Source: a virus. From it: a stretch of DNA of 23,560 bases. The notes beneath the pieces are model-generated. The model made no database searches and had not been told where the DNA came from. It saw only the letters and a list, made by a program, of their open reading frames with translations. The stretch lies in the IMG/VR virus record IMGVR_UViG_3300037071_001564, positions 1 to 23,560 of that record. One strand, 5' to 3'. Each line of letters begins with the position of its first letter. The stretch's first letter is position 1. Both the position numbers and the translations under genes were made by a program. This document shows positions 1,805-22,539 of the stretch, in pieces.

Positions 1805-1833
1805 ACTCTAGCAGGGTGTGCTGCTGTTGTCAC
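1805..1833 (-). promoter_or_regulatory. promoter for the regulator group, leaderless type
   Basis: On the minus strand there is GTGACA (1833-1828), a 17-nt spacer and TAGAGT (1810-1805), with TGC just before the -10 (extended -10). The expected transcript start, 6-7 nt past the -10, is near 1798, and the ATG is at 1794. There is no room for a Shine-Dalgarno site. The helicase-loader-like gene's stop codon (1830-1832) lies inside the -35 hexamer. The -10 is identical to that of the 8168 promoter, but the shared leader of the other four promoters is absent. Confidence 0.6.
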
Positions 1834-2540
1834 CCCCTGATCTCGCACGCGTCGTGGAGCACCTTCTCGGCCTCGGCGTACAGCACATCGTCGGTGCCCT
1901 GCCTATCCCCCCGGAGGATCTCGATCGCGTCCTGACGCATCGCCTCGTCCGGCGGCGGCACGATCCGTCCGGCGTACCGCTGCGCCAGCCGCCACATCAC
2001 CGGCCTCGGGTGGATCCGCTCGGACTCCGGCAGCGCGAGCAGACGGCGGCCGTTCAGGCTCGACACGTTGTCGGGGGTGCCGTTCGTGACCGGTTCCCGT
2101 GCGGCCTTCAGGATCTCCGGGGTGAGCGGCGCGCCGACGGCGGCCTTCTTCACGAACGCGGCACGGCGGCCCTCGTAGTCCTTCCGGAACTGCGCGCGCA
2201 GCGTCTCCGGGCTGGTCGAGTTCCGGATCATCCACGGGCCGCCGCACGCCTTCAGCGACGCGCGCACGACCTCGTTGCCTTGGCTGTTCCCGGCGACGGC
2301 CATGTCCCACGCCTCCTCCGCCGACGGCAGCCCGAGCGCTTCCTCGGCGACCTCACGGCGGATGTCCGCGATCGTCGGCCGGTACACGCTGGTGTTCAGT
2401 AGACGCCGGGTCGCCGAGAGCACCATGCGGGGGTCGAGGTCGGACAGCTGCTGCGCGTACACCCGGGCCGACATGTCGGTGAACGGATGCTGGACGTACG
2501 CGGCCCGGAGGAGTTCGAGCGCTTCAGCCAGCGGATCCAC
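1830..2540 (-). CDS. replicative helicase loader-like protein
   Basis: The start is GTG 2540, preceded by a strong Shine-Dalgarno (GGAGGAGGTGCGAAGTG). It overlaps the initiator-like gene by 17 nt. The first 70 of 236 residues show the pattern of the phage helicase loader/inhibitor family (G39P/G40P-like): an N-terminal helical segment with EALELLRAAYVQHPF, then AQQLSDLDPRMVLSATRRLL and YRPTIADIRREVAEE. This 'P-T-I-A-D-I-R' motif is characteristic of that family. The C-terminal part is helical, charged and unassigned. Such proteins deliver the replicative DnaB-type helicase to the origin. Its place directly after a winged-helix initiator-like gene repeats the lambda O-P layout. The family call is from pattern recognition and moderately sure. 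Confidence 0.75.
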   Translation of the reverse strand: MDPLAEALELLRAAYVQHPFTDMSARVYAQQLSDLDPRMVLSATRRLLNTSVYRPTIADIRREVAEEALGLPSAEEAWDMAVAGNSQGNEVVRASLKACGGPWMIRNSTSPETLRAQFRKDYEGRRAAFVKKAAVGAPLTPEILKAAREPVTNGTPDNVSSLNGRRLLALPESERIHPRPVMWRLAQRYAGRIVPPPDEAMRQDAIEILRGDRQGTDDVLYAEAEKVLHDACEIRG

Positions 2541-3330
2541 TTCGCACCTCCTCCACGATCGACGCCATCGAGCGGGGGTTGTCGGCGAGCGTACGCGCGA
2601 AGTTGCGCGCGATGCCTTCCGGCCCCCACGTCAGGTCGGGCTTCTCCCGCTTCAGCTTCTCGGCGACAGCGGAGACCGCGTCAGCGACATGCCGCTCGTA
2701 CCCTTCAGGGTGCGCCTGCGCCTGCACCATCGCGTCCGGCCACCGGGCGGACACGTGCTGCCAGAGGATCGGGCGGATGTCCTTCAGCGCCCGCTGCACC
2801 CGAGCGCCGTTCAGATCACCGACGGCCTCCGTCGCCGCGACCAGCGCGTTCCACGCGAGGTCTTGCCCATCGACCTTCCGGCCCTTCACCGGATCGTACG
2901 ACGGGTCGACCTGGGGCACCGCGCCCGGCGAAGCCGGAAGGGGTACTGGTTCATCTTCCTGGTTCAAGGTAGTAACTGGTTCGTGGCTCATGGTGACCCC
3001 CTCCCCCTGGCTCATGGTGACCCCGGGGGGTGGCTCATGGTGAGCCACCGGTGTCGCATCCGCGTGAGGGAACCGGTACGTCGTGGAACGGTCTGCGCCG
3101 TCCTCCGTCTTCCGCCGGAGACGCTCGACAAGCCCTGATTCTTCGAGGTCGCCGAGCGCGCGCTTCACCGTCGCAGCGCTCAGTTCGGTGTCTTCCGCGA
3201 TCCTCGCGATCGACGGGTCGCACCGGCCAGTGTCCTTGTTCGCCCGGTCGGCGAGCGCAAGCAGCACCGCCTTCCTCGACGCGCTCCCCGTCTTCTGCTT
3301 CACCGCCCACGCCATCAGCACGTAACTCAT
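2524..3330 (-). CDS. replication initiator-like winged-helix protein
   Basis: This 268-residue protein starts at ATG 3330 (MSYVLMAWAVKQ), the overlap point with a possible leader ORF. Longer in-frame versions upstream look like noise. Residues 15-75 form a winged helix: KAVLLALADRAN, then DPSIARIAEDTEL, SAATVKRALGDLEESGLVER and a basic wing. This is the usual N-terminal domain of phage replication proteins of the lambda O / helix-turn-helix type. Residues about 96-129 are a low-complexity linker with repeated GVTMS. The C-terminal domain (about 135-268) is helical. The linker DNA carries direct repeats that look like origin iterons. Together with the helicase-loader-like gene downstream, this suggests it binds the origin and recruits the loader. 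A transcription-regulator role is the main alternative. Confidence 0.8.
   Translation of the reverse strand: MSYVLMAWAVKQKTGSASRKAVLLALADRANKDTGRCDPSIARIAEDTELSAATVKRALGDLEESGLVERLRRKTEDGADRSTTYRFPHADATPVAHHEPPPGVTMSQGEGVTMSHEPVTTLNQEDEPVPLPASPGAVPQVDPSYDPVKGRKVDGQDLAWNALVAATEAVGDLNGARVQRALKDIRPILWQHVSARWPDAMVQAQAHPEGYERHVADAVSAVAEKLKREKPDLTWGPEGIARNFARTLADNPRSMASIVEEVRSGSAG
2946..3043 (-). other. putative replication origin: iterons plus AT-richer repeat tract inside the initiator gene
   Basis: Read on the plus strand, TGGCTCATGGTGACCCC occurs at 2984-3000 and, identically, at 3008-3024. Its first 13 bases occur again at 3031-3043, giving spacings of 24 and 23 bp. Directly beside them the 7-mer CTGGTTC occurs three times (2946-2952, 2959-2965, 2976-2982) in a stretch of roughly half A+T, clearly AT-richer than its surroundings. 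Iterons next to an AT-rich unwinding tract, inside the linker part of an initiator gene and just before a helicase loader gene, match the lambda ori design. Function is inferred. Confidence 0.5.
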
Positions 3331-4295: not shown

Positions 4296-5339
4296 TCACC
4301 GCATCGTCCCAGGCAGTTCTCCGTCGGGGCCGGGGCCGAACGGGACGTCATCGATCGGGAGGGTGTCCGCTGCCGCCGCGGCCTCGGCTGCCTCGATCGC
4401 CTCGGTCTCGTCGTAGCGAAGCTCGGGCGGCTCCTTCGCCGCGAACGCCCACTGGAACGCCTCGGTGATCGCCCCGGGTTCGCGTGACTCGACCGGCGGG
4501 AACGCGCCCACGTCGGTCTTCTCCACGATGCGGGCGACGGCGTTCGCCATCCTGGTCGCGTACTCGGTGCGCCGCTCCTCGGGCAGTTCCTCCCGCAGGC
4601 TCACCCCGAACAGTTCCGCGAGGAGCGGCTGGAGGGTCGCGGGCCAGTCGAGCGTCGGCCCGATCTGCTTCAGCGCCTCCCCCATCCTCTGCCAGTAGGA
4701 CGCGTCGAGCGGGATAGCCCCGTCAAGCATGTGCTTCCCAGGGTCGAACGGCCCACGCGCCGCAGATCGCGTCCTGGTGGCTCCTGGAGGCTGCTGCTGC
4801 CGTGGCTGCTGCTGCCCGGCGCGGATGGTCTCCTCCGGGCTGGAGCCGTCGGGATCCACCGTCTCCGCCGTCGACACCGCCAGCACGATCGCGAGCACCG
4901 ACTTGAACGCCATCGTGATCGCCTTCGACGTCGACTTGTCGCCCATGTCGGTTCCCTCGCCCCACGCCGACGCGACCACGCTGTCGCCGAGCGGCCCGTA
5001 GAACGTGAACTGGATCCGGAGGTTCGTCTCGTACATCGTCTTCCCGCCGTCCCGGCCGACCATCCGCTCACCGGGGATCCGTTCCAGCACCTCCGGCACC
5101 ACGATCACGCCGTACTTCCCGAGCAGCGGATTCAGTTCGTTCAGCACCGTGTCGTGCGACCGGAACATGAACCCCTGGTCGGCGTTGCGGGTGTCCTTCC
5201 CGATCGCGGGAAGCTCGGCCAGGATCCGCCCGAGCCGCTCGTGGATCGTCGCGTCCTCGTTCCACACCTCGTCGGCCTCGACCGCTGCCGCCGTCGCCTC
5301 CTCGACCGGCTGCTCCGGCTCCTTCGTCTTCGCTGTCAC
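4296..5339 (-). CDS. ERF family single-strand annealing protein
   Basis: The start is GTG 5339, which overlaps the previous stop (GTGA) and follows a strong GAAGGAGACGAC ribosome site. A longer frame from 5681 is Arg-rich and not credible upstream of that point. Of 347 residues, about 30-165 form the ERF domain: HERLGRILAELPAIGKDTRN, then YGVIVVPEV, and the signature GEGTDMGDKSTSKAITMAFK (127-146). ERF proteins are phage recombinases that coat single-stranded DNA and anneal complementary strands, replacing RecA-type pairing in phage recombination. The C-terminal half (Gln/Pro-rich 175-195, then charged helical) is variable in this family. No recognisable exonuclease partner lies next to it. 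Confidence 0.9.
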   Translation of the reverse strand: MTAKTKEPEQPVEEATAAAVEADEVWNEDATIHERLGRILAELPAIGKDTRNADQGFMFRSHDTVLNELNPLLGKYGVIVVPEVLERIPGERMVGRDGGKTMYETNLRIQFTFYGPLGDSVVASAWGEGTDMGDKSTSKAITMAFKSVLAIVLAVSTAETVDPDGSSPEETIRAGQQQPRQQQPPGATRTRSAARGPFDPGKHMLDGAIPLDASYWQRMGEALKQIGPTLDWPATLQPLLAELFGVSLREELPEERRTEYATRMANAVARIVEKTDVGAFPPVESREPGAITEAFQWAFAAKEPPELRYDETEAIEAAEAAAAADTLPIDDVPFGPGPDGELPGTMR

Positions 5340-5596
5340 GTCGTCTCCTTCACGTACGGATTGATAAGCCACCGGCCCGGCTCGCCGTCCTGCCACGGGC
5401 CGGTGTCCATGATCCCGAGCCGGTCGACGGCCGGGTCGATCATCCCCTCGTCCGTCCACATCTGGAGCGCGAGCATGATCCCCGCTGGGGTCTGCGCTCC
5501 GCCGCCTCCGACCCACTCCTGGCCCTCGGCGGCGACGCGAGCGATCCGGAACCTGGCGTCCTCCTCGTACTCCGCCGCCCGCTCGGCCGGGGTCAT
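5336..5596 (-). CDS. hypothetical protein, 86 residues
   Basis: ATG 5596 overlaps the previous stop (ATGA), and the TGA overlaps the ERF gene's GTG. The N-terminal third (MTPAERAAEYEEDARFRIARV) is a charged helix. A glycine patch (WVGGGGAQ) follows, and the rest includes MWTDEGMIDPAVDRLGIMDT. I recognise no family. Tight coupling to the ERF gene suggests co-expression with recombination functions. The longer frame from 5890 is Arg-rich noise before this start and was not used. Confidence 0.75.
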   Translation of the reverse strand: MTPAERAAEYEEDARFRIARVAAEGQEWVGGGGAQTPAGIMLALQMWTDEGMIDPAVDRLGIMDTGPWQDGEPGRWLINPYVKETT

Positions 5597-19600: not shown

Positions 19601-19867
19601 TCAGACCGCCACCTTCCGGGGATCGTACGAGGCCCGGATCCAGTCCAGATCCTCGCCGTGTTCGGCGGCGAGCGCGACGCCCGCCTCGGTGAACATCGCG
19701 AAGACGCAGTCTTCGTCGTCCATCGTGTCGATCAGGTCGAGCTTCTTCAGGTGGGTGAGGTTGCCGCGCTGCGCGGGGGAGACAGTCACGAGCGGCATGC
19801 CGCTCCAGTTGGGGGCGTCCTCTACGAGGCCCATGAACAGTTCGAGTGAATCGGGTGTGATCTGCAT
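19601..19867 (-). CDS. small winged-helix-like protein (moron unit 1)
   Basis: ATG 19867 lies 5 bases after the conserved leader dyad. The 88-residue protein shows a winged-helix pattern: VEDAPNWSGMPLV, SPAQRGNLTHLKKLDLIDTM as helix-turn-helix, and DDEDCVFAMFTEAGVALAAE as the wing and last helix. The 'rGNLt.Lkk..Li.......fT.aG' arrangement is common in small MarR/PadR-like regulators. The end (HGEDLDWIRASYDPRKVAV) is charged. It may regulate the four cassette promoters, its own included, but this is inference. Confidence 0.8.
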   Translation of the reverse strand: MQITPDSLELFMGLVEDAPNWSGMPLVTVSPAQRGNLTHLKKLDLIDTMDDEDCVFAMFTEAGVALAAEHGEDLDWIRASYDPRKVAV

Positions 19868-19872
19868 TTCGT

Positions 19873-21726: not shown

Positions 21727-22539
21727 CTACTCCTCCTCCAGGAACAGAACGTCATCATGGCCTACGGCCCGAACGGCCCGTGCCGCCGCCATCAGCGGCT
21801 CCGGCCGGTGCGGCCGGTCACGCCAGCACGCGATCAGCGCGTCGACGTCTCCTTCGAGGCGGGCGGCCATGTAGCTCGCGTGCCAGCGCTCCTCCTCCCA
21901 CGTCCCGACCATCCGCGCCCTGCGCTGGTACATCCGGATCGCCTCGTCCACCCGGCCGAGACCCTTCAGCGACTGCGCCGTGTAGTAGACGGAGCGGGGG
22001 TCACCGTCGGCGACGCCCGGTGCGAGCGCCTCGATGTCCCGCTCGATCTTGCCCATGTCGTAGGTGCCGTGATGGTGGAGCGTCAACCCGAGGAGGTTCC
22101 GGCGCTTCCCGTCACCCACCAGATACGAGTGCGTCTCCCCGGCGTACCCCCAGTCACGGCGGCCGCGGAGGAGCCACGGCATCCGCCACGACAGACCCCG
22201 ATCCTTCACCAGGATCCGCCACGCCTGCACCTCGGGGTCGGGATCCGCGTCGAGCCACTCCCCTAGCTTCGGGTGCTGCTCGACGGTCATGTCGGCGTCG
22301 ATCATCAGGATCCAGTCGGCCTCCCGCGCGAGCGCGAGCGCGCGCGTGCGAGCCTCGGCGAACCCCTCCCACGCCGCGTGCTGCACGAACGCGCCGAGGT
22401 CGGCGGCGATCGCGGGGGTGTCGTCCGTCGACCCGGTGTCGAGGACATGCACCGCGTCCACGAGCGGGCGGGCGGACTCGATCGCCTGGCCGATGGTGTC
22501 GGCCTCGTCCCGCGCGATCATCACGAGCGCGACGGTCAC
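21727..22539 (-). CDS. family 2 glycosyltransferase with TPR-like C-terminus
   Basis: GTG 22539 overlaps the upstream stop (GTGA). The 270-residue protein begins with the GT2 nucleotide-sugar fold: VALVMIARDEADTIGQAIES, HVLDTGSTDDTPAIA (D34) and WILMIDADM (D81-A-D83, the metal-binding DXD). A helical C-terminal part has TPR-like repeats (RSVYYTAQSLKGLGRVDEAI, MYQRRA, EERWHASYMAARLEGD), as in SunS-type transferases. It lies between a beta-helix appendage gene and a head-tail gene, so its acceptor may be a virion protein. Alternatively it could modify the host surface. Donor sugar and acceptor cannot be read from sequence. Confidence 0.88.
   Translation of the reverse strand: MTVALVMIARDEADTIGQAIESARPLVDAVHVLDTGSTDDTPAIAADLGAFVQHAAWEGFAEARTRALALAREADWILMIDADMTVEQHPKLGEWLDADPDPEVQAWRILVKDRGLSWRMPWLLRGRRDWGYAGETHSYLVGDGKRRNLLGLTLHHHGTYDMGKIERDIEALAPGVADGDPRSVYYTAQSLKGLGRVDEAIRMYQRRARMVGTWEEERWHASYMAARLEGDVDALIACWRDRPHRPEPLMAAARAVRAVGHDDVLFLEEE

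Follow-up and report, generated by a model that had tools for sequence, protein, structure and literature searches.

The closest described counterparts of the locus analysed here are the replication origins of phage lambda and the Stx phages. In lambda, dyad iterons bound by dimers of the O protein are followed by a 40-bp A+T-rich region that opens and then by P, and this layout inside the gene is a proven origin (PMC5043065, PMC7466680). The lambda record carries four annotated iterons in frames 0, 2, 2, and 1, with spacings of 20, 24, and 23 bp. The iteron plasmids P1, F, and RK2 likewise have initiator sites in phase with an A+T-rich tract next to them, but in plasmids most iterons are simple direct repeats to which monomers bind (PMC5043065).

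The DNA studied here, referred to as the window, was a 23.56 kb fragment with a GC content of 69%. The sequence evidence establishes that an O-like initiator gene contains a phased dyad array conserved as DNA, with a low-GC tract adjoining it. Very probably, the locus is a lambda-type in-gene origin, with predicted initiator-binding iterons and a predicted DNA-unwinding element. This design is already known from lambda, and the window is a well-supported new example of it. The features of the locus are listed in Table 1.

Table 1. Coordinates of the putative replication origin and the adjoining genes in the window.
Feature	Position	Strand	Remarks
O-like replication initiator, 268 aa	2524..3330	minus (3330->2524)	assigned by PHROG and Pfam profiles
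Iteron 1 core GGCTCATGGTGAGCC	3032..3046		extended palindrome 3030-3048, 19 nt, GTGGCTCA-tgg-TGAGCCAC; frame unlike iterons 2 and 3
Iteron 2 core GGCTCATGGTGACCC	3009..3023		23 bp from iteron 1
Iteron 3 core GGCTCATGGTGACCC	2985..2999		24 bp from iteron 2
Low-GC tract, putative DNA-unwinding element	2938..2984		immediately follows the iterons in gene direction
CTGGTTC copy 1 (GAACCAG on the coding strand)	2946..2952		within the low-GC tract
CTGGTTC copy 2	2959..2965		other reading frame
CTGGTTC copy 3	2976..2982		
Putative helicase loader, 236 aa, GTG start	1830..2540	minus	17-nt overlap with the 3' end of the initiator gene

The initiator matched phrog_1032 (E = 2.4e-24), the "O-like" family phrog_391 (E = 1.9e-19), and phrog_270 (E = 3.4e-19), as well as the Pfam profile HTH_36 (43 bits with a cut-off of 25). 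Many members of these three PHROG families of O-like initiators also have phased DNA repeats in the linker; unlike the protein match, however, the iteron sequences are lineage-specific. An AlphaFold model, built with 24 sequences comprising only the window and contig rows, consisted of a winged helix in residues 1–90 (pLDDT about 85–98), a disordered linker at approximately 93–154 (pLDDT below 50), and a helical C-terminal part. The array encodes residues of about 95–117. Thus, the profile matches and the model both agreed with the initial annotation, which had located the repeats in the linker of an initiator-like protein. A sequence search for a solved structure of lambda O returned none. 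A separate observation was made in Microbacterium phage ValentiniPuff (L027, 4001-4264), where an 88-aa protein comprises the winged helix only, without the linker and the C-terminal part; its TM-score against the initiator model was 0.91, normalised by the ValentiniPuff protein.

The direct repeats were found exactly as first described, with TGGCTCATGGTGACCCC at 2984-3000 and 3008-3024, and TGGCTCATGGTGA at 3031-3043, at spacings of 24 and 23 bp. A search of the window for direct repeats of 16 nt or more (seed 12, within 150 bp) gave no family other than this one. As in lambda, and unlike in the iteron plasmids, every copy is a dyad. The dyad of iteron 1 reads GGCTCA-tgg-TGAGCC, whereas iterons 2 and 3 read GGCTCA-tgg-TGACCC, so that the right arm TGACCC is imperfect in two of the three; with 6/7, 5/7, and 5/7 positions paired in the 15-bp cores, the iterons are imperfect inverted repeats. 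Their spacing of 23/24 bp corresponds to about two helical turns, which places them in helical phase. The stability of a single-strand hairpin of the array was no better than that of shuffles (z = 0.11).

In gene direction, the winged helix is followed by the iterons, the low-GC tract, the C-terminal part, and the putative helicase-loader gene. The 40-bp GC minimum of the tract is 45%, compared with 69% for the window as a whole, and one other equal valley was detected (19833-19872). The three CTGGTTC 7-mers reported beside the repeats were recovered, in frames 0, 2, and 0. They belong to a broader motif, AACC[AT][AG]T[ACT]A, with 31 copies in 45 genes, all located at nt 300–450. The motif was enriched relative to synonymous shuffles (31 copies against 9.6 expected and a shuffle maximum of 15); nevertheless, it is treated as a lead, since shuffling codons over the whole gene provides a weak null where the composition is local to a tract. 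The motif may belong to the unwinding tract as such or may in part reflect a conserved peptide (EPIxEPI). A longer pattern, AACCWGGAAGNNRAACCWGT, was rejected as not specific to initiators, since the scan gave 12 contigs and just 3 of the sites were in initiators. As a further observation, GAACCAG/GAACCTATCA repeats, sometimes frame-shifted, occur behind the iterons in the window (2946-2982) and in the O-like initiators L008, L013, L025, L029, L030, L042, and L051. These repeats are possibly a conserved element of the unwinding tract.

The gene following the initiator had been described as helicase-loader-like. Its position after the initiator was confirmed; its identity is suggested by weak profile matches, with E = 1e-4 for phrog_2289 "helicase loader" and E = 3.6e-4 for phrog_6028, and by synteny: in phage Pavtok, the gene immediately behind the related initiator belongs to phrog_6028 as well (E = 2e-79). 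The search among annotated phages gave no match for the candidate, and its single-sequence structure model (mean pLDDT 55) had no match in the PDB. Upstream of the initiator, a gene on the minus strand (4296-5351) encodes an ERF-family single-strand annealing protein (Pfam ERF, 5e-14; phrog_155). A putative beta-1,4-glycosyltransferase gene (21727-22539, minus strand; phrog_13126, 9e-19) lies immediately upstream of the gene for the head-tail adaptor (21726-20518), an unusual spot among structural genes. The host is probably an actinobacterium, because the head-tail adaptor is nearest to those of phages of Gordonia, Microbacterium, Mycobacterium, and Streptomyces.

The locus shares with lambda O/ori-lambda and the Stx phages an origin-like region that falls within the initiator gene, where it occupies the linker joining the DNA-binding and C-terminal parts. 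Imperfect inverted-repeat iterons spaced by 20–24 bp in different reading frames and an A+T-rich tract on the downstream side are also common to them (PMC7466680, PMC5043065), and the overlapping gene that comes next, a loader gene in lambda, is a putative one in the window. However, the window has three iterons, compared with four in lambda and six in the Stx phages, and their sequence is another one. In addition, the tract is only moderately A+T-rich (45–49% GC), and the candidate loader is not recognisably lambda P. The initial annotation, which called the sequences unrelated to those of lambda, went too far in this respect: the CTC-N5-GAG half-site layout is shared with lambda iteron 1, and the iteron core occurs in eight other distant initiators. 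Genes 46-44 of Microbacterium phage Lesiram offer another comparison. This high-GC actinobacterial phage also encodes a helix-turn-helix protein followed by an annotated helicase loader and SSB; however, its linker showed an in-frame repeat of 11 nt at 18 nt but no 22/23-bp array, and its loader and that of the window are not alike (BLASTP).

Overall, the earlier assignment to the lambda O/ori design was supported by the initiator families, the location in the linker, the palindromic iterons, the low-GC tract, and an anatomy recurring in dozens of relatives. Under this design, the winged-helix initiator would bind as dimers to the three iterons within its own gene. From the phased array it would bend the DNA and open the adjoining low-GC tract (2938-2984). 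The next gene (2540-1830) would supply the protein that brings the replicative helicase of the host to the melted region, where replication would then start. Binding by the initiator, strand opening, helicase loading, and origin activity are thus what we infer for the locus. A GC-skew check on the fragment gave negative values over most of its length, with no usable turning point.

The dyads might instead constitute an operator array, to which the winged-helix protein binds within its own gene for the control of transcription and not for replication. The evidence at hand does not distinguish regulatory from replicative binding; winged-helix regulators also bind dyads, and the best fold matches of the initiator model in the PDB are regulators. 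The model also matches viral O-like/HTH replication proteins. What makes the operator improbable is the context: the protein matches replication-initiation families and not repressors, and the iterons lie about 280 nt inside the gene, with the low-GC tract adjoining and the putative loader gene next. The same layout is that of the proven origin in lambda (PMC5043065, PMC7466680). A dual role in both regulation and replication is conceivable.

An origin of the lambda type presupposes sites that are kept as DNA, whereas repeats in a low-complexity linker could also mirror a repeated peptide with no role of the DNA. The two in-frame copies indeed encode a near-identical peptide, GVTMSQ/GVTMSH. 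Their identical codons, which the initial annotation had offered as evidence against a protein-level repeat, were confirmed, but they are moderate evidence when taken alone, as the 17-nt repeat arose in 3 of 300 synonymous shuffles, in which codons were permuted within the gene. The third copy lies in another frame because of the 23 bp spacing and encodes AHHEP instead of TMSH/TMSQ; the frame-shifted 14-nt repeat was obtained in none of the 300 shuffles. The 13-mer is read in two reading frames, and therefore the array is conserved as DNA and not as a repeated peptide.

The relatives of the initiator showed the same. No close relatives were recovered from viral contigs when the initiator, the loader, or the Erf-like protein served as the query, and the scan of genome contigs gave one distant match. 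The set of relatives found by protein similarity comprised 36 distinct initiators from viral contigs and phage records, including that of the window, and arrays were scored as identical stretches of 9 nt or more recurring after 22 or 23 bp, both of which put the copies out of frame. Such repeats were present in 18 of the 36 initiators, whereas synonymous shuffling predicted 0.95. With a single exception, the 26 repeats begin at gene nt 263–420, directly behind the winged helix. The iteron sequences vary by lineage, namely GGGTCAGAATCTGACCC in L004, GGGGTCGCCACACGACCCC in L051, and GGGGTGACACCCATGTCACC in Bifidobacterium phage PMBT6 (L028). The relatives without an array by the 22/23-bp measure were mostly A+T-rich ones, together with Lesiram. 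The initial annotation had considered that relatives might keep the linker and lose the DNA repeats; the reverse was observed, in that the linker peptide varies among relatives and the DNA design is retained. The repeated-peptide explanation is thus contradicted by the frame-shifted copies and retains almost no probability.

The iteron core was also searched for in DNA, independently of protein similarity. Among 2.9 million viral contigs scanned, 12 carried two copies of CTCATGGTGA 19–26 bp apart, and in 11 of these the site was located in the linker of a winged-helix initiator-like ORF. After near duplicates were merged, the 11 contigs represented 8 distinct proteins, all of which matched replication-initiation PHROGs; the match of the L087/L091 protein was weak (E = 9e-4). 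With the pattern reversed as a control, two contigs were obtained, neither with the site in an initiator. The shared iteron DNA encodes AHHEP, SHGE, LMVRP, or TMRP in different phages with a GC content from 41 to 69%. The arms outside the searched core vary and yet stay complementary (GG/CC, GT/AC, GC/GC, and TG/CA). These findings would be hard to explain other than by a protein-binding dyad common to distant initiators. A functionless recent tandem duplication through replication slippage could account for the 17 identical bases that copies 1 and 2 share at 24 bp, but it is contradicted by the recurrence of the core in the initiators of unrelated phages, across the same range of GC contents, while the spacers differ around a constant dyad core and the third copy lies in another frame, and we give it next to no credence.

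Some sites of the scan deserve separate mention. The twelfth CTCATGGTGA pair (L085, 4448-4480) does not fall in an initiator-like ORF and may be due to chance; its contig encodes a terminase-like protein as well. Unusually long arrays were found in other phage initiators. In L086, nine dyads GTCTCA-NNN-TGAGAC, mostly at 22/23 bp, occupy gene nt 351-560, and in L087/L091 the array covers gene nt 288-428, with seven dyads in L087 at a strict 21-bp period in one frame.

Across 32 array-bearing genes, the sharing of iteron 6-mers tracked the identity of the recognition helix when the rest of the winged helix was allowed for (partial Mantel r = 0.40, 0 of 2000 permutations). This correlation is what direct binding by the product of the same gene predicts, and we regard it as a lead because the gene set mixes two discovery routes and the correction is linear. 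A broader proposal, which we consider somewhat less likely than not, is that the iterons of O-like phage initiators follow the recognition helix, S-x-x-[ST]-[VIT]-x-R corresponding to a CTCA-NNN-TGAG core with variable outer arm bases. This would amount to a natural recognition code for phage origins, readable from sequence, along with an unwinding tract that has its own DNA-kept repeat, GAACC[AT][AG]T[ACT]A.

In conclusion, a likely replication origin can now be placed on an otherwise uncharacterised high-GC phage. The lambda plan, with the origin within a protein-coding linker, appears to be widespread among O-like initiators, in phages of very different base composition. The rule of dyads at 22–24 bp may serve as a simple predictor of origins, plasmid vectors, and incompatibility groups in phages of little-studied hosts. 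Since the initiator and its target are combined in one gene in each phage, these genes represent a natural experiment on site choice by winged-helix proteins, and the interest of the finding lies mainly in the generality of the rule and in the possible recognition code.
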